Virus record (IMG/VR): IMGVR_UViG_3300037258_000433
Location: 1-25,524 of that record
Length of the DNA stretch: 25,524 nucleotides
Strand: one strand, 5' to 3'
Source of the DNA: a virus
A program made the position numbers and the translations under genes. Shown in pieces: positions 7,783-23,224 of the stretch (positions within the stretch are counted from its first letter, which is position 1; each line of letters starts with the position of its first letter). The notes beneath the pieces are model-generated. The model did not search any database. It was given only the letters and a program-made list of their open reading frames with translations, and had not been told where the DNA came from.

Positions 7783-8622
7783 ATGGCACGCAAGAACCGG
7801 GGCAAAGGCATTGCCCAAAAGCTCGCCGATGCTTTGACTGGCAGCGCCGAGCCCGAAATCAAGCAGAACCTGGAGACCGCCGCCACGTCAGTCGTGGAAG
7901 AGGCTGTCGCCAAGCTCGAAGAGACCGAAGGCACCGAAACGCCAGGACCGCGCGACGAGAAGCCGATCGAGCCCGTTGCTCCCGGCCCGCTGACTGCTTC
8001 GAGCAATGACTTCACGGCGATGCTCGCCGCGATCAGCGTGGAAGACGCCACCGAAATGTCGGCGAAGGCGACTGCCTCCGTTGACGAGCGTGCGTCCTTC
8101 GAGGCTGTGAAGGATTCTTCCAACACGAAGATTCAGGCGACACTGAAGAAGGTGCGCGCGGGGCTCACCAATCTCGATGCGGCCCGCGTCCTGATCGCCA
8201 GCAATGTCGATCCGAACATCTTCAATCGCGAGGTTCACACTGGCTCGCGATACAACGTCTATGCCCTCGGCAAGCTTGTCGATGCCATGAACGCGATTGG
8301 CACCGACGGCAAGAAGGTGACGAACGCCATCAATCTCGCCTGCATGAGGTCGTTGTTCCAGTTCCGGGCCAACGGCGCGCAGTTCACCGGCGAGATGGCA
8401 AAAGCCGCTGCTTCCGACAAGATCCGCGTGTCCGCCTCCATCAGCGCGATGTTGGTGCGTCATACGGTGTCGGCTTCGACGGCGCCGACCCAGGCTTCCA
8501 GCACCATGCAGGCGCTGGAGACGCTCGGGATCGTCAAGCGCTCGGGCAACACCCGCAACCCCAACTTCGACCTGATCGACAGCCCGATCACTGCGCGGTT
8601 GGAACAGGCGCTCGCGGCGTAA
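7783..8622 (+). CDS. hypothetical phage protein, 279 aa (paralogue of the 10660-11256 gene)
   Basis: The ATG follows GAGGAG. Residues 1-20 are basic, about 25-70 are an acidic Glu/Pro-rich linker, and about 100-279 form a helical core. The core aligns with the minus-strand gene at 10660-11256: NTKIQATL versus NTSIQSTL, ASNVDPNIFN versus ASNVAPDFIN, RYNVYA versus RFNVYA, and a shared T-x-AS(T)/TQ(A/S)SS-x-x-ALxx end. I do not recognise the family. The gene has its own promoter-like element, leader inverted repeat and terminator, as a strongly expressed phage gene would. Confidence 0.8.
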   Translation: MARKNRGKGIAQKLADALTGSAEPEIKQNLETAATSVVEEAVAKLEETEGTETPGPRDEKPIEPVAPGPLTASSNDFTAMLAAISVEDATEMSAKATASVDERASFEAVKDSSNTKIQATLKKVRAGLTNLDAARVLIASNVDPNIFNREVHTGSRYNVYALGKLVDAMNAIGTDGKKVTNAINLACMRSLFQFRANGAQFTGEMAKAAASDKIRVSASISAMLVRHTVSASTAPTQASSTMQALETLGIVKRSGNTRNPNFDLIDSPITARLEQALAA

Positions 8623-10612: not shown

Positions 10613-10660
10613 GAGCACAGTGGAGCGCTGCACTTTGTCTGTGCAGCGCTCTCTGTGCTC
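10613..10660 (-). repeat. long near-perfect hairpin after the 10660 gene
   Basis: GAGCACAG (10613-10620) pairs with CTGTGCTC (10653-10660). After a small internal bulge GAGCGCTGCAC pairs with GTGCAGCGCTC, giving 19 bp around a 7-nt loop. The outer end touches the stop codon of the upstream minus-strand gene. No U tract follows on either strand, so it may be an mRNA stabiliser or processing site rather than a simple terminator. Confidence 0.65.
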
Positions 10661-11256
10661 TACTGCGCAACTAGCTCGCGCAGCGCTGTCACTGTGTCGT
10701 TGTCGTTGAGCGTATAAGCGACGTGATTTGCAGTGTCGCGCGTCTCAGTCAGCACGTTGAACACTTGCAGCGCGTTGATGCTGCTCGACGACTGAGTCGA
10801 AGCAGTGTTCGCAGCAACATGCTTTGCGTAGCGTGCGCTCTTGATGATTGCAGCACGCGACTTGTCTTTATGCGTGACTGACATGCTGCACGCTGCTACA
10901 GCGTCAGCATGATTGAGCGTCGTTTCAGCAGTTTTGAGAGCGATAGCAGCGCGCACAATCGCGAGTGTGTAGTGATTCAGCGTCGCGCTTTTCGCAATCG
11001 CTTGTGCGAGATTTGCGACTTTCTCGCTCGCATAGACATTGAAGCGATTCGACGTGCGCTCAGACTTATTGATAAAGTCGGGCGCGACGTTGCTTGCGCA
11101 CATGATCGCGGCGATGGCGTCGCGGTCGAATGTCTTAACGAGCGAGTCGAGTGTCGATTGAATCGACGTGTTCGCGTCGTTTTTGCTCTGCTCGTATGAC
11201 TTACGCGCTGCACATGCGGCGAGCAATTCAGTCTTATATTCGCTTTGCTGTGTCAT
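10660..11256 (-). CDS. GG-free hypothetical protein gene, 198 aa (paralogue of the 7783-8622 gene)
   Basis: I start at the ATG at 11256; an in-frame TTG at 11292 would add 12 residues. The protein aligns with residues 110-279 of the 7783 gene product (ASNVAPDFIN, RFNVYA, TQSSSS). The coding strand has no GG dinucleotide at all and only about six CC by my count, although its GC content is moderate. The protein has no Gly, no Trp and one Pro, exactly the residues whose codons all need GG or CC. The avoidance crosses codon boundaries, so it acts on nucleic acid rather than on protein. A class A operator lies upstream and a long hairpin follows the stop. The family is not recognised. Confidence 0.75.
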   Translation of the reverse strand: MTQQSEYKTELLAACAARKSYEQSKNDANTSIQSTLDSLVKTFDRDAIAAIMCASNVAPDFINKSERTSNRFNVYASEKVANLAQAIAKSATLNHYTLAIVRAAIALKTAETTLNHADAVAACSMSVTHKDKSRAAIIKSARYAKHVAANTASTQSSSSINALQVFNVLTETRDTANHVAYTLNDNDTVTALRELVAQ

Positions 11257-11329
11257 TGTTTTGACTTTCGTTTGCGAGATCGCGTTGTGCAATCTCTATA
11301 AATGACAATACACGCTGCACAATATGGGA

Positions 11330-14734: not shown

Positions 14735-16327
14735 TCATGCAGCTTTGCGTTCGGAGAACAGTTCCCAAGGAAAGTCCGCGCCTGGTGGAAGGATATTTTC
14801 AGCGAAACCAGGTGTCGCCTCGATAATTCCGCGTCGTTGACGCGCGTGATCGCGCAAATGACTGTTTAGATCGTCGGTAAAGTCCACAACGAACGTCACG
14901 TTCGCGCCAGACTTCTTGGCGCGCAGACCGCGGCCGACTCTTTGACGTAAAGCGACCTCGGCTTTGCCGCCGCCGGCAAGAATGACCATGCCAATCGCGG
15001 GGACATCGATACCGACATCCAAAATCGTTGTGCCGATCAAAACATCAATATGGCCGAAGCCAAAACCATTGAGGGCTCGCTTCCGCTCAGTTTGTTTGTT
15101 CTCACCTTGTAAAAATTGTGAGACCAGGCCGGTATGTCGAAGCATTTTTAGCAATATCGCGCCATGTTCCTTTCGCTGAACCAGAATAAGCACGGGCAAG
15201 CTGTGTTCTTTACATTTTTTCGCATAATGCACGATGCACTCGTTTCGAAACGTCGCGTCAACGATGCCAAACGTCACGGCTCGCTGATAGGGCGAAGATT
15301 TGCGCAGTTTCGGGTGAGGGGGCGGCGATCGGTAGAGAAAATAGGGCTTTGCCAAGATCCCGCGCTTGATGAGAAGCTGTTCGCTGACCTTTAGCAGAAT
15401 TGGGCCAAAAGCGGCCATCAGCCGCATGTTGTCCTCGGCGTCCGCGCGCATAAATGGCGTGGCGGTGAGAGCAACGCGAATGTCGGCGTTTTTGCACCAC
15501 TTCAGAATGTCGTAGTATGAATTGCCGCCGGCTTCGTGCGCCTCTTCGCCGATGACTATCTCGACCATCTCCAAAAGCTTGATTGTGCGTCGGCGCACTT
15601 TGATCTTCTCGTCGAAGCAAACCTGCGCCTCGGCAACACACTGAGCGCGCGTCATTGTGATGCCGGCCTTGGCAGTACGCTTCACGACCTGGCGAATCTC
15701 TTCATCCATCTTCGGCTCTTCGAGCTGCGAGATCAGTGACTGCACCATGCCCACGTTAATGCCGCGCGTCGGCGCCCACTCGCCATCCCCGATGACGCCA
15801 ACGCTAAATTTGCAGTCCTTTAAGAGCTGATCGCGCATCTGGTACATCAGAACGCCGCGAGTGGTGATAAACATCGTCATCCGACGATATCGCGAGACAA
15901 TCAATTTGGCGATTTTGGACTTGCCGCCACCGGTGGCGACCTGAATGATACCGCGGCCGTGCTTCTCGACCTGGCGCACCGCCCGAAGCTGAAAGTCGTA
16001 GTCGGGATTGTCATTGCCAAACTCATCGACGACAGGGCTCTCCGGCCCCAGTGGCTCGGGCGCGGGCTTCTTAACGATGTGTACGCTGTAGCCGGCGCGT
16101 GTCAGCTCGCCATGAACCAGATGCACAAAGCCCGCGGGAAACGTGCAGGTTCGCCTGGCAAAGAAACTAGAGCGCCCGTTCCACCCGCCGGTGGCGAACG
16201 CCTGCATAAACTCGTGGCCCTCGACCAGATAGCTAAGCTTCTCCGTAACCAGATTCTTCACCTGATCGTCGGCGTGAACAATCTTCGCCACAACGGCATT
16301 GGCTGCGATTATTAGTTGCTTAGGCAT
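14735..16327 (-). CDS. SF2 DNA helicase, UvsW-like
   Basis: A 530-aa superfamily 2 helicase. Visible elements: Q-motif (Q113), Walker A ATGGGKS (131-137), motif II GEEAH (260-264, where DEAH is usual), motif III TATPF (288-292) and motif VI QRVGRGLR (462-469). The N-terminal 110 residues form an extra domain (WNGRSSFF near 49-56), as in T4 UvsW and related phage helicases that branch-migrate forks. A charged insert lies between Ib and II (about 205-255). It is the first gene of a minus-strand unit; a class A site lies between it and the divergent ParB operon. It probably acts in replication or recombination. Confidence 0.85.
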   Translation of the reverse strand: MPKQLIIAANAVVAKIVHADDQVKNLVTEKLSYLVEGHEFMQAFATGGWNGRSSFFARRTCTFPAGFVHLVHGELTRAGYSVHIVKKPAPEPLGPESPVVDEFGNDNPDYDFQLRAVRQVEKHGRGIIQVATGGGKSKIAKLIVSRYRRMTMFITTRGVLMYQMRDQLLKDCKFSVGVIGDGEWAPTRGINVGMVQSLISQLEEPKMDEEIRQVVKRTAKAGITMTRAQCVAEAQVCFDEKIKVRRRTIKLLEMVEIVIGEEAHEAGGNSYYDILKWCKNADIRVALTATPFMRADAEDNMRLMAAFGPILLKVSEQLLIKRGILAKPYFLYRSPPPHPKLRKSSPYQRAVTFGIVDATFRNECIVHYAKKCKEHSLPVLILVQRKEHGAILLKMLRHTGLVSQFLQGENKQTERKRALNGFGFGHIDVLIGTTILDVGIDVPAIGMVILAGGGKAEVALRQRVGRGLRAKKSGANVTFVVDFTDDLNSHLRDHARQRRGIIEATPGFAENILPPGADFPWELFSERKAA

Positions 16328-16390: not shown

Positions 16391-17050
16391 GTGGCAAATC
16401 TAATTTCCGTGCATCCAAGCCGGCTGCGGGCAAACCCGTGGAATACGAACTTCGTGTCGCCCGAGAATGAGATCAAGCTCGCGAGATCGCTTGCGGAGCT
16501 GGGCGAGTTCAAGCCGATTATAGTTCGAGAACTTTCCGACGGCACGACTGACTTCGAAATTCTTGGCGGCGAACATCGATGGAGCATCGTGCGCGATAGC
16601 GGCGCCGATGAGATTTCCATCTACAATCTTGGCGTTGTCGATGATTTGAAGGCGAAGAAGATATCGCTTGCAGACAACCCTCGCTATGGCGCCGACGACA
16701 CCCTGGCGCTCGCAAAGCTTCTTGAGGAAATCGGCACCGCGGACGAAATTCAACAGTTCTTGCCTTTTACCGACAGTGACATCTCAGCGATCTTCAGCGC
16801 TTCAGATATAGCGCTTGAAGAGCTGGAGTTGCCGGAAAGTTTCGAGGAAAAGGCAGACGCTCTCGAAATCAAGCCGGAGCGCGCGCCGAAAACGCATACG
16901 ATCATGCGCTTCAAGGTGCCGCTTGGTGACGCCGAGCGCATTACCGAAGTAATCACTAAAACGCAGAAGCGCCAGGGCTACAGCTCATCGGACGAGCTGA
17001 CTAATGCCGGCGACGCGCTCGTGCATCTCATCTTCGCGGACAAAGAGTGA
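16391..17050 (+). CDS. ParB-domain protein 1
   Basis: A 219-aa protein with an N-terminal ParB/sulfiredoxin-like domain. V-H-P-S-x-L-x-x-N-P-W-N opens it, and the nucleotide-binding box is GEHRW (60-64), where chromosomal ParB has GERR. A helical stretch follows. There is no ParB HTH DNA-binding domain or dimer domain that I can see. It starts at GTG after GAGGTAAATAGCTA. Such single-domain ParB proteins are common in phages, often near DNA-modification genes, and may bind nucleotides or act on DNA. It opens the operon that includes the second ParB protein and the ABC-ATPase/GNAT pair, and ends in TGATG coupling. Confidence 0.8.
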   Translation: MANLISVHPSRLRANPWNTNFVSPENEIKLARSLAELGEFKPIIVRELSDGTTDFEILGGEHRWSIVRDSGADEISIYNLGVVDDLKAKKISLADNPRYGADDTLALAKLLEEIGTADEIQQFLPFTDSDISAIFSASDIALEELELPESFEEKADALEIKPERAPKTHTIMRFKVPLGDAERITEVITKTQKRQGYSSSDELTNAGDALVHLIFADKE

Positions 17051-17250
17051 TGGGGCCGCCGTTCAAAGAGCGCTTCACCGGCAGACACCCTGAATGCCGA
17101 CAGTGCGTCCACTTCAAACCAAATGCAGGCTCGATTCACTGCCTGAACTGCGGCGCCGGCGAGTTCTTCGAGGAAAAGGTCGATGACGAAGGCCCGGATG
17201 AGGACGATCTGAGAATTATATTTTCGAGCATGGATGGTGACTATGACTGA
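17050..17250 (+). CDS. small zinc-ribbon protein, 66 aa
   Basis: The ATG at 17050 shares a base with the preceding stop; a GTG at 17047 is also possible. It has C16-x-x-C19 and C31-x-x-C34, the classic zinc-ribbon spacing, followed by an acidic C-terminal half (KVDDEGPDEDD). Position between two ParB genes suggests an adaptor or nucleic-acid-binding partner (inference). It overlaps the next gene by 17 nt. Confidence 0.75.
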   Translation: MGPPFKERFTGRHPECRQCVHFKPNAGSIHCLNCGAGEFFEEKVDDEGPDEDDLRIIFSSMDGDYD

Positions 17251-17911
17251 AAAATCAAAGCAGCCGATCGAGCTGTGGGATATCGACAAGATAATCCCGT
17301 ACCCAAAGAACCCAAAGAAGCACTCGCAAGAACAGGTCGAGCGCCTCGCGCGCTCCATCGAGCGCTTCGGCATCACGCCCTTACAGGTCGAAGGCAATCA
17401 GGAAGGCTGTACGCCCGGATTGATCATCGCGGGTCACGGGCGCCGGCTGTCGATCATTCATCTCGGCCGCAAGAAAGCGCCGGTGATTGTTCGCAACGAT
17501 CTATCGAAGATGGAATGCGACGCGCTGCGCATCTCGGATAACGCCGCGGTGTCGAATGACATCGATTACGACCTTCTAGGCGAAGAGACAATTCGACTAG
17601 GCGAAGAGGGCTTTGAATTGAGCGATCTCGGCATGACCGACGCCGAACTGAAGGCTCTCACGACCGATATTGGCGAGATCGACGAAACGGCTTTCACGAC
17701 CGACATCACGGCGGCGGTCGAAGAGCAGAAGAAAGACAACGCCAAAAAGGAAGCTGAAATCGACGACAAAGAAGGCCCTGTCGGCGAAGCGCTCGGCTTC
17801 AAGAAAGTAACGACCGAACAGAGCCGCATCATTCGCGGCTTCATGGCTCGCGTCGAAGCAGAGACGGGCCTCAAAGGAGCCGCTGCGCTTGTTGCGCATA
17901 TCGGCGCGTAA
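17234..17911 (+). CDS. ParB-domain protein 2
   Basis: A 225-aa protein with an N-terminal ParB-like domain: I-P-Y-P-x-N-P opening, IIAGHGRR (64-71) in the nucleotide-binding box, and ISDNAA (100-105). The GHGR form is that of the phage and methylase-linked ParB-like family, not of chromosomal ParB. A charged linker (about 155-185) and a C-terminal helix follow, with no HTH domain seen. The start is ATG at 17234 or 17243. The operon partner ParB 1 has GEHR instead, so the two domains are not redundant copies. A class A operator overlaps the stop codon. Confidence 0.8.
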   Translation: MVTMTEKSKQPIELWDIDKIIPYPKNPKKHSQEQVERLARSIERFGITPLQVEGNQEGCTPGLIIAGHGRRLSIIHLGRKKAPVIVRNDLSKMECDALRISDNAAVSNDIDYDLLGEETIRLGEEGFELSDLGMTDAELKALTTDIGEIDETAFTTDITAAVEEQKKDNAKKEAEIDDKEGPVGEALGFKKVTTEQSRIIRGFMARVEAETGLKGAAALVAHIGA

Positions 17912-17926
17912 ATCAAAACTGAATTA
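17909..17926 (+). promoter_or_regulatory. class A operator upstream of the ParA-like gene
   Basis: TAAATCAAAACTGAATTA, two mismatches to the consensus. It overlaps the stop of ParB 2 and lies 20 nt before the ATG at 17947, suggesting an internal promoter or operator within the operon. Confidence 0.6.
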
Positions 17927-17946
17927 TCACAGGACTGGAACCTAAA

Positions 17947-18636
17947 ATGCTGACCAAGCCAAGCTGCAAGAACACCTTCATCCTCGTCGGCGCCGATAAA
18001 GGCGGCGTGGGCAAAACGACATTCTCACGATTGCTGCTCGAATATCTCGCGCAGTATCCGTGCTCGATGCGCGTATTCGACACCGAGCCCGGCCCTGGCG
18101 TGCTGCGTCGATTCTGGCCATCGGCCGAACAGATCAACCTCGCCGACCCAATCGATCAAGCCAAGGTCATCGATGGCCTAGGCGCGGCGCGCGTGACACT
18201 CGTGGACATTCGAGCCGGCCTTCTCTCGCCGACACTTCACCTGTTTCAGCGTATCGGTCTGGAACACGGCGTTGAAGCGCACCTCGCGGTGTTTCATGTG
18301 CTGGGCAATACGATCGCCTCATTCGGCGAGATCGCCACGACTGCGGCCATGCTAAAAAACAACGGCGACCACATCATCGTCAAGAACCACACCAACGCCG
18401 GCGCCTTCGTCGATGTGGAAGACAAGATCGCATCGCTCGGCCCCGAGACCAACATCATCGACATCGGCAATCTGGAAGCCGTTGCCGCGGAGCGAGTGGA
18501 TCAGCGCAGTCAGACCTTCGCCGACTTCACCTCGGACAAGACCAACTCGCGCACCATCCGCGGTATCACGCGATCTTGGTACGACGCTTCATTCGCCGAA
18601 CTCAACCAAGCCGGCGTCAACGCTCTCGTGAGCTAA
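17947..18636 (+). CDS. ParA/MinD-like P-loop ATPase
   Basis: A 229-aa protein with a deviant Walker A motif KGGVGKTT (18-25) whose signature lysine (K18) defines ParA/MinD ATPases, Walker A' aspartate in VFDTEPGPG (D45) and Walker B-like VTLVDIRAG (D87). ParA proteins dimerise on ATP and position DNA or complexes. Normal ParA works with a ParB bound to a centromere site. Here two ParB-domain proteins lie upstream, but neither has an HTH, so classic plasmid partition is not proven. It may instead be a MinD/MipZ-like or mobile-element family member. Confidence 0.8.
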   Translation: MLTKPSCKNTFILVGADKGGVGKTTFSRLLLEYLAQYPCSMRVFDTEPGPGVLRRFWPSAEQINLADPIDQAKVIDGLGAARVTLVDIRAGLLSPTLHLFQRIGLEHGVEAHLAVFHVLGNTIASFGEIATTAAMLKNNGDHIIVKNHTNAGAFVDVEDKIASLGPETNIIDIGNLEAVAAERVDQRSQTFADFTSDKTNSRTIRGITRSWYDASFAELNQAGVNALVS

Positions 18637-18641
18637 AGAAA

Positions 18642-18995
18642 GTGTCCGAAGAGCCAGAACAATCAAATGTAGTTGGTCTTTTCGATAAAAAGATCAGCGC
18701 CTCAAACGACGAGAAAGCGCCGGCCGAAAAGCCGGCGCAGCTCGTCGATCTCGCGGGTGTCGATCAAAACTCCGTGCGAACGCTTAATAGCGTCATCGAA
18801 GCGGTGCTGAAGCGAAAAGTGTCGGGTGTTTGCGTAATGGCCACGGGCGAAAATGGTCTGGGCTCATTTTGGCTCAGCTTCCCAGTGGGCAAACAAGCGC
18901 AGGTCGAAGCAACGCGATATCTCGGCCTGCTGGAACTATTCAAATCGATCGTGATCGAGGTTGTCGCGAATGGCGTTCAAGGCGAAGATGAATGA
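18642..18995 (+). CDS. hypothetical protein, 117 aa
   Basis: I choose the GTG at 18642 because the upstream part of the frame lies within the ParA gene and is Arg-rich. The N-terminal 45 residues are polar and disordered (NDEKAPAEKPAQ). The C-terminal part looks like a compact alpha/beta domain (GVCVMATGENGLGSFWLSF). No family is recognised. It is ATGA-coupled to the ABC ATPase, so it is likely to be a partner of it. Confidence 0.65.
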   Translation: MSEEPEQSNVVGLFDKKISASNDEKAPAEKPAQLVDLAGVDQNSVRTLNSVIEAVLKRKVSGVCVMATGENGLGSFWLSFPVGKQAQVEATRYLGLLELFKSIVIEVVANGVQGEDE

Positions 18996-19618
18996 AATAT
19001 ATCATCGATAAGCGCTTCAACACATCCGTCGAACGAACGCCGCGCGTTCTGGAGATCGCCGAAAGCTTTGGGCTTGGGCTCTCGCTCAAAGAGTTCGTCA
19101 TCTACGATCGCCTATCGATCGAGGTGAACCCCGGCGATGTGATCTACATCACGGGCCAATCGGGCTCTGGTAAATCGCTTCTGTTGCGCGAATTAGCGCA
19201 ACAGATGTCGAAAACATTCAGCGTTGTCAGCCTCGAAGACTTCGCCTTACCAAATAAGCCGGTCATTGAATGCCTCGGCGATACCACGACGCACGCGGCC
19301 GACTTGCTCGCAAAGGCAGGCATTTCGGACGCATGGATCTACATTCGAAATCCAAAAGAGCTGTCCGACGGCCAACGCTATCGCCTGCGCCTGGCGATGC
19401 TCATGGATATAAAGGCCGACGTGTGGGTGGCGGATGAATTTGGCGCCGTGCTCGACCGCGTCACGGCAAAATGCGTCGCGTTCAACATACAGAAGATGGC
19501 GCGCGCTCTAGGCAAAACTCTGATCGTGGCAACAACGCATACGGATCTGAAGGAAGAGTTAGGCCCATCGCTGACGATCACCAAGCGATTTCGCGAGAAG
19601 GTCATTATCGAGCGATGA
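18992..19618 (+). CDS. ABC-type ATPase (soluble, COG2401-like)
   Basis: A 208-aa ATPase with a full ABC set: Walker A GQSGSGKS (55-62), signature LSDGQ (124-128), Walker B VWVADE (144-149, catalytic E149), D-loop LD (154-155) and H-loop H183. No transmembrane partner is nearby. The nearest known arrangement is COG2401, an ABC ATPase fused to a predicted acetyltransferase in archaea; here the two are separate genes overlapping by 4 nt. It probably powers or regulates the acyltransferase complex rather than transport (inference). It is expressed from the ParB operon. Confidence 0.8.
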   Translation: MKYIIDKRFNTSVERTPRVLEIAESFGLGLSLKEFVIYDRLSIEVNPGDVIYITGQSGSGKSLLLRELAQQMSKTFSVVSLEDFALPNKPVIECLGDTTTHAADLLAKAGISDAWIYIRNPKELSDGQRYRLRLAMLMDIKADVWVADEFGAVLDRVTAKCVAFNIQKMARALGKTLIVATTHTDLKEELGPSLTITKRFREKVIIER

Positions 19619-20535
19619 TCGCAGGGAACGTCGCTGACGCGCTGCGCGACGAAAGAGACACCGAGACAGTCATCGAGCGAACGGCAGCACCGGCACCGCG
19701 TTTCTCGCTCACTGAGCGTATGTTTATAGAGCGGGGAGACAGGTCAGACTGGGATCTGTTGCACGATCTGCATTACAAGGCAGAAAATCTCCCGATCGGC
19801 CCGAAATTCTGGAAACTGACGCTTGAAGGCGAGACCATTGGCGTGCTCGTCACGGGAAATCCGAAAGGACTTCTAAAAGAGCGCCACATCGCTTTCCCGT
19901 CGATCAAGCCGACTGGCAAAGATACGAAGCTCACCAACACGCAGCGCTACGTCTACATCAACCGAAATTTTCGCGTGGTGTCGCGATTTGTCGTGGACAC
20001 GATGTATCGCGGCATCGGCGTCGGCTATCGAATGATGAATTTAGTGGCTCGCATGGAGGGAAAGACCTTCATGGAGATCCAGTCATCCATGTCGAAGTTC
20101 AATCTGTTCGGGCAGAAGGCGGGCTTTCATTTCGTCTCGCCGCGCAACTCCAACAAATACGAAGAGGGCCTCAAGTTCTTTCGCGGACACTTTACGGCAA
20201 GCCCGCAGGACTTCGTCGCAATTCTCGATGAGCTGAAGACGAAGGCGCCGGCAGAGCGCGAAAGCCTGCTTCAAGACTGCAAGACCTTCTACTACCGGCA
20301 CTCAGCGATGGAAAAGACCGGCGTGTCTTTGCATCACCGCGATACCGCGGAAGATCGCGTGAACGCGATGGGTGAAGGCGAAGTAATTCGAAAATTGCAG
20401 CAGCTAACCATGACATCGCCACTCTACGGCGTGTGGAAGTGTCCCGACAAAACGCCGGCACCACAGCGGCTGCCGCTAAGCGCATTCGATTGGCAAAAGC
20501 CAAACGAGAAATTCAAACCGAGAGAGTTTGCATGA
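19615..20535 (+). CDS. GNAT-family acyltransferase linked to the ABC ATPase
   Basis: A 306-aa protein starting at the ATG that overlaps the ABC stop (ATGA). The GNAT acetyl-CoA pyrophosphate loop is YRGIGVG (131-137), the R/Q-x-x-G-x-G motif. LHDLHYK (49-55), G-E-T-I-G-V-L (72-78) and a long basic C-terminal half (about 190-306) complete it. LHYK near the N-terminus and the ABC partner recall the GNAT half of COG2401, and phage Mu Mom, the DNA-modifying enzyme, is itself a GNAT-related protein (established). Substrates could be DNA bases, proteins or small molecules. That it modifies phage DNA is inference. Confidence 0.75.
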   Translation: MIAGNVADALRDERDTETVIERTAAPAPRFSLTERMFIERGDRSDWDLLHDLHYKAENLPIGPKFWKLTLEGETIGVLVTGNPKGLLKERHIAFPSIKPTGKDTKLTNTQRYVYINRNFRVVSRFVVDTMYRGIGVGYRMMNLVARMEGKTFMEIQSSMSKFNLFGQKAGFHFVSPRNSNKYEEGLKFFRGHFTASPQDFVAILDELKTKAPAERESLLQDCKTFYYRHSAMEKTGVSLHHRDTAEDRVNAMGEGEVIRKLQQLTMTSPLYGVWKCPDKTPAPQRLPLSAFDWQKPNEKFKPREFA

Positions 20536-20792
20536 ACGAAAATATCTTCGCCTACACAGCGCCGCCGTCAGAACATGCTTCAATGCCGCCGTACCTTTCG
20601 ACCAATCGCCAGGCGAACGGCATGATCGGCATCACAGTGCGCAGTTCGGTAGAGCTGGGCAGCACGACGGCGTACATCGAGCTAACCGAAGAACAATGGC
20701 TCGACTTTTTGCGTGAAAGCAACGCAAACGCGGCGCGCAAGCACAAACGAGAAGTTCTGGACAAGAAGCCCGAGGAACCCGAGGTCGCGTAA
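20532..20792 (+). CDS. hypothetical protein, 86 aa
   Basis: It starts at the ATG overlapping the GNAT stop. The N-terminal part is Pro/Ser-rich, the centre is a possible beta region (GMIGITVRSSVELGSTTAYI) and the C-terminus is basic and helical. The function is unknown. Coupling to the GNAT gene suggests it belongs to the same system. Confidence 0.65.
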   Translation: MNENIFAYTAPPSEHASMPPYLSTNRQANGMIGITVRSSVELGSTTAYIELTEEQWLDFLRESNANAARKHKREVLDKKPEEPEVA

Positions 20793-21064
20793 TGGGCGCT
20801 CACTACGAATTTGCGCAGACCGACAAACAGACCGAGATCATGAAGCTGATCCTCGCGCAGGCGGATCTCGGCAGCTACATCACGTTGACCGCTCTCCGGG
20901 AGCAGCTTTCGTACAAGCCATCCAAGCAGGCCATCTTGTGCTCGGTGCGGGTGCTAGAAGGACATGGCTTTTTAACCAAGATCCACCACGGCTGCCGGAC
21001 GATGGAGATTATACCGACAGCTCTCGCTTACTCCACCTTTAGAGCAACGCCGACCCGATTCTGA
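20792..21064 (+). CDS. winged-helix DNA-binding protein, 90 aa
   Basis: The ATG overlaps the previous stop (TAATG). Helices at about residues 12-23, 30-38 and 45-59 followed by a short wing (GFLTKIHHG ... TMEIIPTALAY) fit a small winged helix-turn-helix, a family common in phages. It is the last gene of the operon and could regulate it or the downstream terminase unit (inference). Confidence 0.65.
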   Translation: MGAHYEFAQTDKQTEIMKLILAQADLGSYITLTALREQLSYKPSKQAILCSVRVLEGHGFLTKIHHGCRTMEIIPTALAYSTFRATPTRF

Positions 21065-21086
21065 GCCGGATATTTGACCGTCTTTC

Positions 21087-21104
21087 GTCTCTTACTTTCT
21101 TTCT
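21087..21104 (+). repeat. dispersed 18-bp repeat, copy 2
   Basis: GTCTCTTACTTTCTTTCT, one mismatch from the copy at 7573-7590. It overlaps a 15-bp palindrome (CTTTCTTTAAGAAAG). The location between the ParB operon and the terminase unit suggests a regulatory role. Confidence 0.5.
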
Positions 21105-21163
21105 TTAAGAAAGAGTAGTAGTATAGAGCTTACTGACGGACCCGGATATTCGGAGAGAATCGA

Positions 21164-21181
21164 TAAATCAGGTCTGACTTA
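21164..21181 (+). promoter_or_regulatory. class A operator upstream of the terminase unit
   Basis: TAAATCAGGTCTGACTTA, one mismatch to a perfect inverted repeat. It lies 10 nt before the ATG at 21192, directly in front of the GGAG ribosome-binding site. Confidence 0.7.
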
Positions 21182-21191
21182 CGGAGCTAAA

Positions 21192-21923
21192 ATGTCTGAA
21201 GATACCCTACGACCGAGCGAAGGTGTCGTGGAGGAACCTGCGGAAGTTGTACCAGCACCGGCTGATGATACCCCGGAAGAAGACGCAGATGGCGTCGCTG
21301 GCAAGCGCTATTCCAAAGCAACCTGGGCAGAAATCGAGACGCATTGGCAATGCGGCACGATGAACGCCAAACAACTGATCGAAAAGTATGGCGTGTCGCA
21401 AGGCGCGCTTACGAAGCATTTCGCGCGCCATAAAATCCTACAATTCAGCAAGATGCACGTCCTCAAGCGTGAGGCGGAGATCAAGATCATGGGCGCCGCC
21501 GCGGCCGCCATTGATCCAAAGGCTGTTGAGTGGGAGACGAAAAAGAAGGGGCGCATCGCTGAAACCCGAGAGCATATCTATAACCTCTCGCGCGCCACAT
21601 ACGCGCGGGCGCTACGAATTGGTAAGGATATTCAAGACGGTGTTCGCAAAGAGGCTGAATGCGCAAACGATATAAAGATGCTTCGGCACATGGAAGCATT
21701 CATCGAGAAGAACCTCGCCAACCGCATGAACGTGCTGGAGGCGGAGAAGGAGATCGACGAGTCGCAGATGCCGACCCTGATCTTTCGCGATCTTACCGAA
21801 GAGGAAATTCAGGCGAAGGCCGAGTCAGACGGCGATGATGACGAGCTGGGCTTGGATGCGCCGGCAGATTCGACTCTGACGCTGGATGATGAAGACAGCG
21901 TAGTGGATGAAGGTGGCGTGTGA
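21192..21923 (+). CDS. terminase small subunit-like protein
   Basis: A 243-aa protein placed directly upstream of the terminase large subunit, as small subunits usually are. Residues 45-80 (WAEIETHWQCGTMNAKQL, then a helix with VSQGALTKHF) form a helix-turn-helix like that of phage small terminases, which recognise packaging sites. The N-terminus is disordered and the C-terminus is acidic (DDDELGLD...). The ATG has GGAG upstream. The stop overlaps the next start (GTGA). Confidence 0.75.
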   Translation: MSEDTLRPSEGVVEEPAEVVPAPADDTPEEDADGVAGKRYSKATWAEIETHWQCGTMNAKQLIEKYGVSQGALTKHFARHKILQFSKMHVLKREAEIKIMGAAAAAIDPKAVEWETKKKGRIAETREHIYNLSRATYARALRIGKDIQDGVRKEAECANDIKMLRHMEAFIEKNLANRMNVLEAEKEIDESQMPTLIFRDLTEEEIQAKAESDGDDDELGLDAPADSTLTLDDEDSVVDEGGV

Positions 21924-23224
21924 CCACCTCTCTTCTGCTGAGCACCACGGTAGAGCCGATCAAAAGCCCGGTGCTCACGCTCCACAAAGGGCAACGCAAG
22001 GTATTTAGCGATCATCGCCGGTTCAAGGTGGTGGTCGCTGGTCGTCGTTGGGGAAAGACACAAACAGCGAAGCTCGCGATCTTGCGGCGCGCGGTGCGCA
22101 AACGACAGCTCATCTGGTACGTGGCGCCGACTTACGGCATGGCCCGATCGATTTTGTGGGAGGAGCTGAAAGAGGCGATCCCGCGGGAATGGGTGCGTTC
22201 GATCAATGAAACCCGCATGTCTATTCTGCTCTACAACAAGACCAAGATCGAGCTGAAAGGCGCCGATAAGCCCGACACCCTACGCGGCGTGGGCCTGGAT
22301 CTTCTCATCATCGACGAGGCGCAGGATATTCGCGAAGTCACCTGGTTCAAGGTGCTGCGGCCGACGCTGGCGTCTACCCGCGGCGACGCGCTCATCATCG
22401 GCACGCCCAAGTCGTTCAACTGGCTTTACGACCTCTACATGCTGGGTCAGCGCGGCGACACCTATATCAGCAAGCGCGGCAAGCTGCTCATCAATCCGTG
22501 GAAGAGCTGGCAGTTCCCGACATACACCTCGCCGTTTATCCCGCGCTCGGAAATAGAAGCGGCGAAGGCGGATATGGACGAGAAATCGTTCAATCAGGAG
22601 TTCAACGCCAGCTTCGAAACGATGTCGGGGCGCGTGTATTACGCCTTCGATCGCGCCGTGCATGTCGGCATGTATCCATTCAATCCGAAGCTGCCGATCT
22701 TGATAGGCCAGGACTTTAACATCGACCCGATGTCCTCGGTCATCATGCAACAGCAGCCAAATGGCGAAATTTGGATTGTTGATGAGTGCATTTTGAACGG
22801 TTCGAACACGCAGGAGACGGCGGATGAGATTTCGCGCCGTTATTTCAAATGGACAAAGAACGTCATCTTCTACCCGGATCCCGCCGGCGCCAGCCGATCG
22901 ACGAAGGGCAGGGGCGAGAGCGATCTGGATATTCTGCGCGACGCCGGCTTCACACGACTAAAGTACCGCCGGAAGCATCCCAAGGTCGCCGATCGTATCA
23001 ACTCGGTGAACCGCATGTGGAAAGCGGCCGACGGCTCAATTCGGATGCGAATAAACAACACCTGCAAGGTGACCATCAACTCGATGGAGCAGACGATCTA
23101 CAAGCCAGGCACTCGTGAAGTAGACAAGTCGGCGGGCCTGGAGCACGCCGGCGACGCGCTTGGCTATTACATCGACCTCGAATTTCCCGTGCGCAATATC
23201 AAGATCATGGGTATTTCTCTGTAA
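21920..23224 (+). CDS. terminase large subunit (packaging ATPase-nuclease)
   Basis: A 434-aa protein with the terminase ATPase Walker A GRRWGKT (41-47), Walker B LLIIDE (128-133) and a C-terminal nuclease domain beginning at IGQDFNIDP (262-270, D265 candidate metal ligand), with later acidic residues. It powers DNA packaging into the head and cuts the genome. Start GTG at 21920 in the GTGA overlap with the small subunit, supported by AAGGTGG upstream. This gene is the firmest evidence that the window is phage DNA. Confidence 0.95.
   Translation: MTTSLLLSTTVEPIKSPVLTLHKGQRKVFSDHRRFKVVVAGRRWGKTQTAKLAILRRAVRKRQLIWYVAPTYGMARSILWEELKEAIPREWVRSINETRMSILLYNKTKIELKGADKPDTLRGVGLDLLIIDEAQDIREVTWFKVLRPTLASTRGDALIIGTPKSFNWLYDLYMLGQRGDTYISKRGKLLINPWKSWQFPTYTSPFIPRSEIEAAKADMDEKSFNQEFNASFETMSGRVYYAFDRAVHVGMYPFNPKLPILIGQDFNIDPMSSVIMQQQPNGEIWIVDECILNGSNTQETADEISRRYFKWTKNVIFYPDPAGASRSTKGRGESDLDILRDAGFTRLKYRRKHPKVADRINSVNRMWKAADGSIRMRINNTCKVTINSMEQTIYKPGTREVDKSAGLEHAGDALGYYIDLEFPVRNIKIMGISL

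Follow-up and report, generated by a model that had tools for sequence, protein, structure and literature searches.

Iyer et al. reportedly predicted in 2013 that an ABC-ATPase-coupled GNAT system carries out acyl modification of DNA. The prediction was restated in 2021, with Tenacibaculum phage pT24 as its example (PMC7824862). Here we analyse a gene module of comparable make-up in IMGVR_UViG_3300037258_000433, a 25.5-kb IMG/VR virus fragment (the window, whose positions serve as coordinates throughout). Like the predicted system, the module couples a phage GNAT to a soluble ABC ATPase, the predicted substrate being a DNA base; its ABC and GNAT genes are adjacent and overlapping, and they are homologous to fused ABC-GNAT proteins. 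Unlike the predicted system, it keeps ABC and GNAT as separate genes and includes two ParB proteins, a zinc ribbon and a small winged-helix-like protein. We consider it probable that this is a ParB-guided, ATP-driven DNA acylation module, expressed with the packaging genes to mark progeny DNA, and not a plasmid partition system.

Several other described systems resemble parts of the module. In the single-polypeptide family phrog_11143, the ABC and GNAT halves are homologous to the window proteins and usually have one ParB gene upstream and often a terminase downstream, whereas in the window the two halves are separate genes accompanied by two ParBs. Mom of phage Mu (PF25680; structure 8bv8) has the GNAT fold and an invariant His-Tyr and Arg that may correspond to those of the window GNAT, and a ParB gene precedes some Mom genes; the DNA-adenine modification by Mom, of acyl type, would be analogous to the activity proposed here. 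Mom, however, has no ABC partner, and the canonical RxxGxG of the window GNAT is missing from the Mom pyrophosphate loop. ParB-methyltransferase fusions (phrog_498) contain the same type of ParB domain as the second ParB of the window and often have a terminase shortly downstream, but they carry a methyltransferase where the window has ABC and GNAT. Finally, DpdB and DndB are proteins of the ParB superfamily that serve deazaguanine and phosphorothioate modification of DNA (PMC12839542, PMC10853773), but their enzymes and chemistry differ and they belong to host-encoded modification or defence systems. Thus, ABC-GNAT modification of DNA had already been predicted; the present analysis contributes the split form with two ParBs, the finding that it belongs to the core of SSU5-like phage-plasmids, the ParB-ABC-GNAT-terminase synteny across unrelated phages and a census of ParB partners. 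The split form and the DNA-modifying company kept by ParB genes make the earlier ABC-GNAT prediction much firmer.

Conservation of the module in SSU5-like phages and phage-plasmids

The original prediction, made from the window sequence, described nine tightly spaced or overlapping genes on one strand and treated them as a single system. All nine reading frames are indeed open, and neighbouring frames either overlap by about 4-17 bases or lie at most 35 apart (Table 1). Using profiles built from the window and five named phages on 80 IMG/VR loci, we found that the conserved core consists of ParB1, in about half of the relatives a zinc ribbon, ParB2, ABC, GNAT and a small probable winged-helix protein, the last assigned by eye. 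The ParA-like, 117-aa and 86-aa genes lie outside this core and are lineage additions: the 117-aa gene occurs in the window and two close relatives (L007 and L024), while among the 80 loci no relative carries the 86-aa gene and none has a ParA within the module, leaving the window alone in both respects. The single system of nine genes is therefore to be reduced to its core, the part that does co-occur.

In fragments of sufficient length the order is ParB1, (zinc ribbon), ParB2, ABC, GNAT, the small winged-helix-like gene, TerS and TerL (the terminase subunits), preceded by a helicase gene on the opposite strand. The 90-aa winged-helix-like gene is kept in relatives whose fragments span its region. 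The helicase holds its position in L001-L005 and most of L007-L101; despite this conservation we did not count it as core because it lies on the opposite strand. Two loci vary, the ParB labels being apparently swapped in L029 and a second ParB2-like frame being present in L042. The same order recurs in 15 bacterial genome contigs (Methylocystis to Xenorhabdus), over whatever part of the module each contig covers, in an Acinetobacter baumannii plasmid, in SSU5 and phages of Klebsiella, Pseudomonas, Stenotrophomonas and Rhizobium, and, among the closest named relatives, in a circular Methylobacterium plasmid. Since it is conserved across about 100 loci, chance is excluded, and the co-occurrence across phages for which the original prediction proposed a profile search is borne out for the core.

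The element in the window is SSU5-like, as it combines an SSU5-type terminase with synteny to SSU5 and to the circular Methylobacterium plasmid. TerL identity in tblastn searches is 52.8-66.7% for 30 SSU5-like records and then drops sharply to about 42%. The GNAT gene was found in 30 phage records, the very ones returned by the terminase search; because the two sets coincide (30/30), GNAT counts among the core genes of SSU5-like phages. In addition, 905 plasmid records carry GNAT, many of them SSU5-like phage-plasmids of about 100-120 kb, and SSU5-related elements are established phage-plasmids (PMC12977533). In the module of an Acinetobacter baumannii phage-plasmid (L107:7607-7960), a thioredoxin-family gene stands between ABC and GNAT.

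Table 1. Features of the module and its surroundings, in window positions
Feature	Positions	Strand	Basis
UvsW-type DEAD/DEAH helicase, divergent neighbour of the module	14735..16327	-	hidden Markov model (HMM) of relatives
ParB1, ParB/Srx N-terminal domain	16391..17050	+	Pfam ParB_N, phrog_723, conserved columns
67-aa zinc-ribbon-like protein	17047..17250	+	CxxC...CxxC in sequence; HMM matches in relatives
ParB2, GHGR-type ParB domain	17234..17911	+	phrog_930, phrog_498, PADLOC MTase_II
ParA-like ATPase, inserted in module	17947..18636	+	KGGVGKTT; weak CbiA match
117-aa protein	18642..18995	+	HMM comparison with relatives
Soluble ABC ATPase, 208 aa, core	18992..19618	+	Pfam ABC_tran, phrog_293, invariant motifs
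GNAT acyltransferase, 306 aa, core	19615..20535	+	phrog_886, 62-sequence alignment, AlphaFold2, PDB matches
86-aa protein	20532..20792	+	open reading frame, ATG start at 20532
90-aa probable winged-helix protein, last core gene	20792..21064	+	phrog_900, E 9.2e-12
Module-terS intergenic gap, 127 bases, inverted repeats	21065..21191	.	sequence; SSU5 record ends
Terminase small subunit (TerS)	21192..21923	+	phrog_867, E 1.4e-22; synteny
Terminase large subunit (TerL)	21920..23224	+	tblastn against 30 SSU5-like records, 52.8-66.7%

ParB proteins, their partners and the fused ABC-GNAT form

Both ParB proteins had been described as carrying different ParB boxes without a helix-turn-helix domain, and this description holds. 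ParB1, which starts with GTG, contains GGEHRW and DNxR, passes the Pfam ParB_N cut-off (29.6 against 26.3 bits, E 7.4e-7) and corresponds to phrog_723 (E 1.6e-56). ParB2 contains GHGRR, reaches 19.5 bits with ParB_N, which is under the cut-off, and corresponds to phrog_930 (E 3.3e-55). It also matches phrog_498, the ParB-methyltransferases (E 3.6e-30), and, over the ParB part only, the PADLOC model MTase_II (E 3e-18). Judged by these matches, the ParB2 domain is of the type fused to phage DNA methyltransferases. In Pfam and PHROGs only the N-terminal domain was matched in either protein, and Pfam gave no match to a ParB helix-turn-helix. The ParA-like protein does contain the predicted KGGVGKTT, but its family match is weak (CbiA, 3.8e-4, below cut-off) and, as noted above, it is no regular member of the module. 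SSU5 and the circular Methylobacterium plasmid each have a separate ParA gene outside the module. Homologues of the window ParA-like protein lie downstream of the terminase and portal genes in L012, L018 and L087:14976-15734.

The partners of related ParB genes are the strongest clue to function. We inspected the 80 best IMG/VR loci (L235-L314) for the GHGR-type ParB domain, which alone served as the query. In 44 of the 80 the ParB is fused to a methyltransferase, in 16 it is followed by a Mom-family protein, in 3 by an ABC-GNAT fusion, and in 2 a methyltransferase lies nearby. Pfam and PHROGs assigned partners to most of the remaining 15: C5-cytosine methyltransferases beside ParB in L244, L267 and L293, N6/N4 methyltransferases adjoining or fused to it in L263, L264, L294 and L311 (L311 by PHROG only), and TET-associated glycosyltransferases beside it in L249, L296 and L297 (the latter two by PHROG only) and weakly in L250. 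No DNA-modifying partner was assigned by Pfam or PHROGs in L279, L314, L310 and L313. In total, a DNA-modifying enzyme is fused to the ParB or comes after it in about 75 of these nearest 80 relatives. Within the same loci, matches to methyltransferase, Mom or ABC-GNAT fall on 21 of 101 ParB-adjacent frames and on 5 of 890 others (Fisher p 9e-18). In Microbacterium phage Pickles13, too, the gene directly 3' of a ParB gene encodes a genuine Mom (Pfam E 1.2e-46). It thus looks like a general rule that phage ParB genes lacking a helix-turn-helix stand overwhelmingly beside, or fused to, DNA-modifying enzymes, often just upstream of a terminase. In L279:1434-2384 and L314:5728-6681, ParB genes are followed by a fusion of a histidine phosphatase and a cytidylyltransferase; these pairs could represent a sugar-type DNA modification that has gone unrecognised.

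ABC and GNAT form a single protein (phrog_11143), with ABC as its N-terminal half, in the more distant phages Leptospira LE4, Gordonia Sisko, Rhodococcus Jace and Vibrio VmeM-32. We examined the best 80 of at least 600 IMG/VR matches to the fused form, together with five loci from named phages. Of the 69 loci with enough upstream sequence, 59 have a ParB gene whose end lies at most 400 bases upstream of the fusion, and TerL was detected downstream in at least 27 of 67, a minimum given the crude TerL model. That three genes separate in one phage group are partly fused in unrelated ones, with their order kept, is strong evidence for a functional unit. Tandem pairs of ABC-GNAT fusion genes occur on single phage fragments in L192, L202 and L204. 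In Rhodococcus phage Jace (L105:6101-7212), a gene annotated as aspartate decarboxylase directly follows the fusion; its product could provide or modify the acyl donor, or the annotation could be mistaken.

The ABC and GNAT proteins

The ABC protein matches Pfam ABC_tran (E 1.6e-13) and phrog_293 (E 2.1e-43). Of the full motif set ascribed to it, we could locate Walker A (GQSGSGKS), the signature (LSDGQ), Walker B (VWVADE), the D-loop (LD) and the H-loop (ATTH), but no obvious Q-loop. Walker A, signature, Walker B and H-loop are invariant in the alignment of relatives. A role as an ABC transporter was rejected, as Pfam and PHROGs (no transmembrane prediction was made) revealed no permease among the operon proteins. 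PADLOC returned only ATPase-type matches for this protein, the best being mad3 (E 7.9e-15), along with mad8; mad3 and mad8 are components of one defence system.

The loop YRGIGVG from which a GNAT had been recognised is present, and the protein matches phrog_886 (E 2.5e-112). Its Pfam GNAT matches are below cut-off; we accept the fold because the phrog_886 match and the AlphaFold2 model (predicted local distance difference test, pLDDT, 85.1; predicted template modelling score, pTM, 0.75) support it. Among 62 relatives the invariant residues are H53, Y54, K55, R124, R132, G135, S157, K161 and N163, including the R132-x-x-G135 element. The His-Tyr pair and an Arg on the central strand are likewise invariant in the fused family, and the two families align at these residues in a profile comparison with hhalign (probability 96.4%, E 1.3e-9). 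In Mom proteins H58-Y59 and R111 are invariant (NC_000929 numbering); a mutational study of Mom is reported to have named the corresponding residues H48, Y49 and R101, in a numbering 10 lower. The fused GNAT and Mom profiles match with a probability of 66-69%. In the weak direct comparison of the window GNAT with Mom, the His-Tyr pairs coincide, and the Arg residues pair by way of the fused family.

Searched against the PDB, the GNAT model ranks Mu Mom (8bv8) second (Z 11.5 over 143 residues; root-mean-square deviation 3.3 A), but many other GNATs score within one Z unit of this match. Against BFVD, a Mom ranks fourth and the LE4 ABC-GNAT sixth. For the fused model, Mom is absent among the 50 matches listed, which does not exclude a likeness to Mom, and the GNAT profile gave only chance matches, to annexin, among sequences of solved structures. 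Together, profiles and models support a relationship of the window GNAT to the fused phage family, and possibly, short of family membership, to Mom.

Function of the module, alternatives and significance

Modification of DNA is the best-supported reading of the module. Gene content, order, conservation, domain identities, the ABC-GNAT fusion elsewhere and the partners of ParB genes are observed; the reading draws on the co-occurrence, on the DNA-modifying partners of ParB relatives, on the fused ABC-GNAT homologues and on the His-Tyr motif that links GNAT, more weakly than it links the fused proteins, to Mom. In the mechanism that we propose, GNAT most likely would move an acyl group from acyl-CoA onto an exocyclic amine of a DNA base, which the ABC ATPase would expose by using ATP to clamp, travel along or distort the DNA. 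The ParB proteins, lacking a site-binding helix-turn-helix, may act as nucleoside triphosphate (NTP)-dependent DNA clamps, loaders or specificity factors, since such proteins are used beside methyltransferases, Mom and DNA glycosyltransferases. The terminase genes directly follow the module, so phage DNA would probably be marked once replicated, before it is packaged or while this happens.

A number of results weigh against this reading. The link to Mom is remote: direct hhalign comparison with the window GNAT gives a probability of 17-20%, and still 20% after the Mom alignment was enlarged to 88 sequences; with no match to Pfam Mom (PF25680) either, membership in the Mom family by sequence was rejected. 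Protein and small-molecule GNATs reach equally high structural Z scores against the model. At Mu-type Mom loci a ParB neighbour occurs in only 1 of 80, so Mom enzymes in general do not need ParB. The first sequence of the census query is a ParB-methyltransferase fusion, which may have favoured relatives of that kind. No carrier of the module is known to have a modified nucleoside, and titles and abstracts of the literature yielded no account of modified bases for SSU5 or RHEph10. Lastly, a dispensable anti-restriction function would not usually be a core gene in 30/30 phages. That the whole SSU5 group keeps it suits a more integral task than optional anti-restriction, and roles in modification and packaging could be combined.

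In the main rival reading, the module regulates packaging or the terminase: ParB and ABC would form an SMC-like clamp on DNA at the site where packaging starts, and GNAT would acylate the terminase, ParB or a host protein, switching the element between plasmid and virion. Its invariant place immediately upstream of terS and terL, its presence in every SSU5-like record and the common adjacency of the fused form to TerL all suit such a regulator. However, the same slot holds DNA-acting methyltransferases, Mom and TET-associated glycosyltransferases, and ABC-GNAT also occurs away from terminase genes, as in VmeM-32. We regard a packaging regulator as unlikely. An anti-host system, with GNAT modifying a host protein or RNA (compare GNATs that acylate RNA polymerase) and ABC and ParB being accessory or unrelated, is more improbable still: the fold is equally near the protein N-acetyltransferases RimI and Ard1, but GNAT is strictly coupled to ParB and ABC across unrelated phages, and the partners of ParB are DNA-modifying enzymes. 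Partition of a phage-plasmid by ParA, ParB and a centromere, as the ParB domains and KGGVGKTT ParA in one window operon and the phage-plasmid relatives (PMC12977533) might suggest, is largely excluded and was rejected, for no helix-turn-helix was found in either ParB, ParA is missing from the module in 80/80 relatives and encoded separately in SSU5 and the Methylobacterium plasmid, the fused form occurs in other phage types, and ABC and GNAT would be left unexplained. The original preference for DNA modification over partition thus stands, the kinship with Mom being more distant than it implied.

Downstream of the module, beyond the 127-base gap, follow terS, terL and the portal gene. The linear SSU5 record was opened in this same gap; its position and the inverted repeats there suggest a cos or pac site. 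Elsewhere in the window, the proteins encoded at 7783-8622 (+) and 10660-11292 (-) have a common repeat pattern (SNVDPNIFN...RYNVYALGK and SNVAPDFIN...RFNVYASEK) and look like paralogues.

If DNA modification is the function, the module might, more tentatively, deposit an acyl mark without prior chemical description, made by an ATP-driven ABC-GNAT with NTP-binding ParB clamps and coupled to packaging, by which phage-plasmids would recognise virion-bound DNA as distinct from that of plasmid or host. SSU5-like phage-plasmids occur widely in Klebsiella, Escherichia, Salmonella, Enterobacter and Acinetobacter; that they modify their DNA, if true, would bear on restriction escape and on packaging, and as carriers such as Escherichia phage PhiR41_1 are recorded in E. 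coli K-12 the reading is directly testable. Furthermore, the ParB rule suggests that phage ParB genes lacking a helix-turn-helix may serve as a marker for finding undiscovered base modifications, and it would correct many annotations that now read 'partition'.

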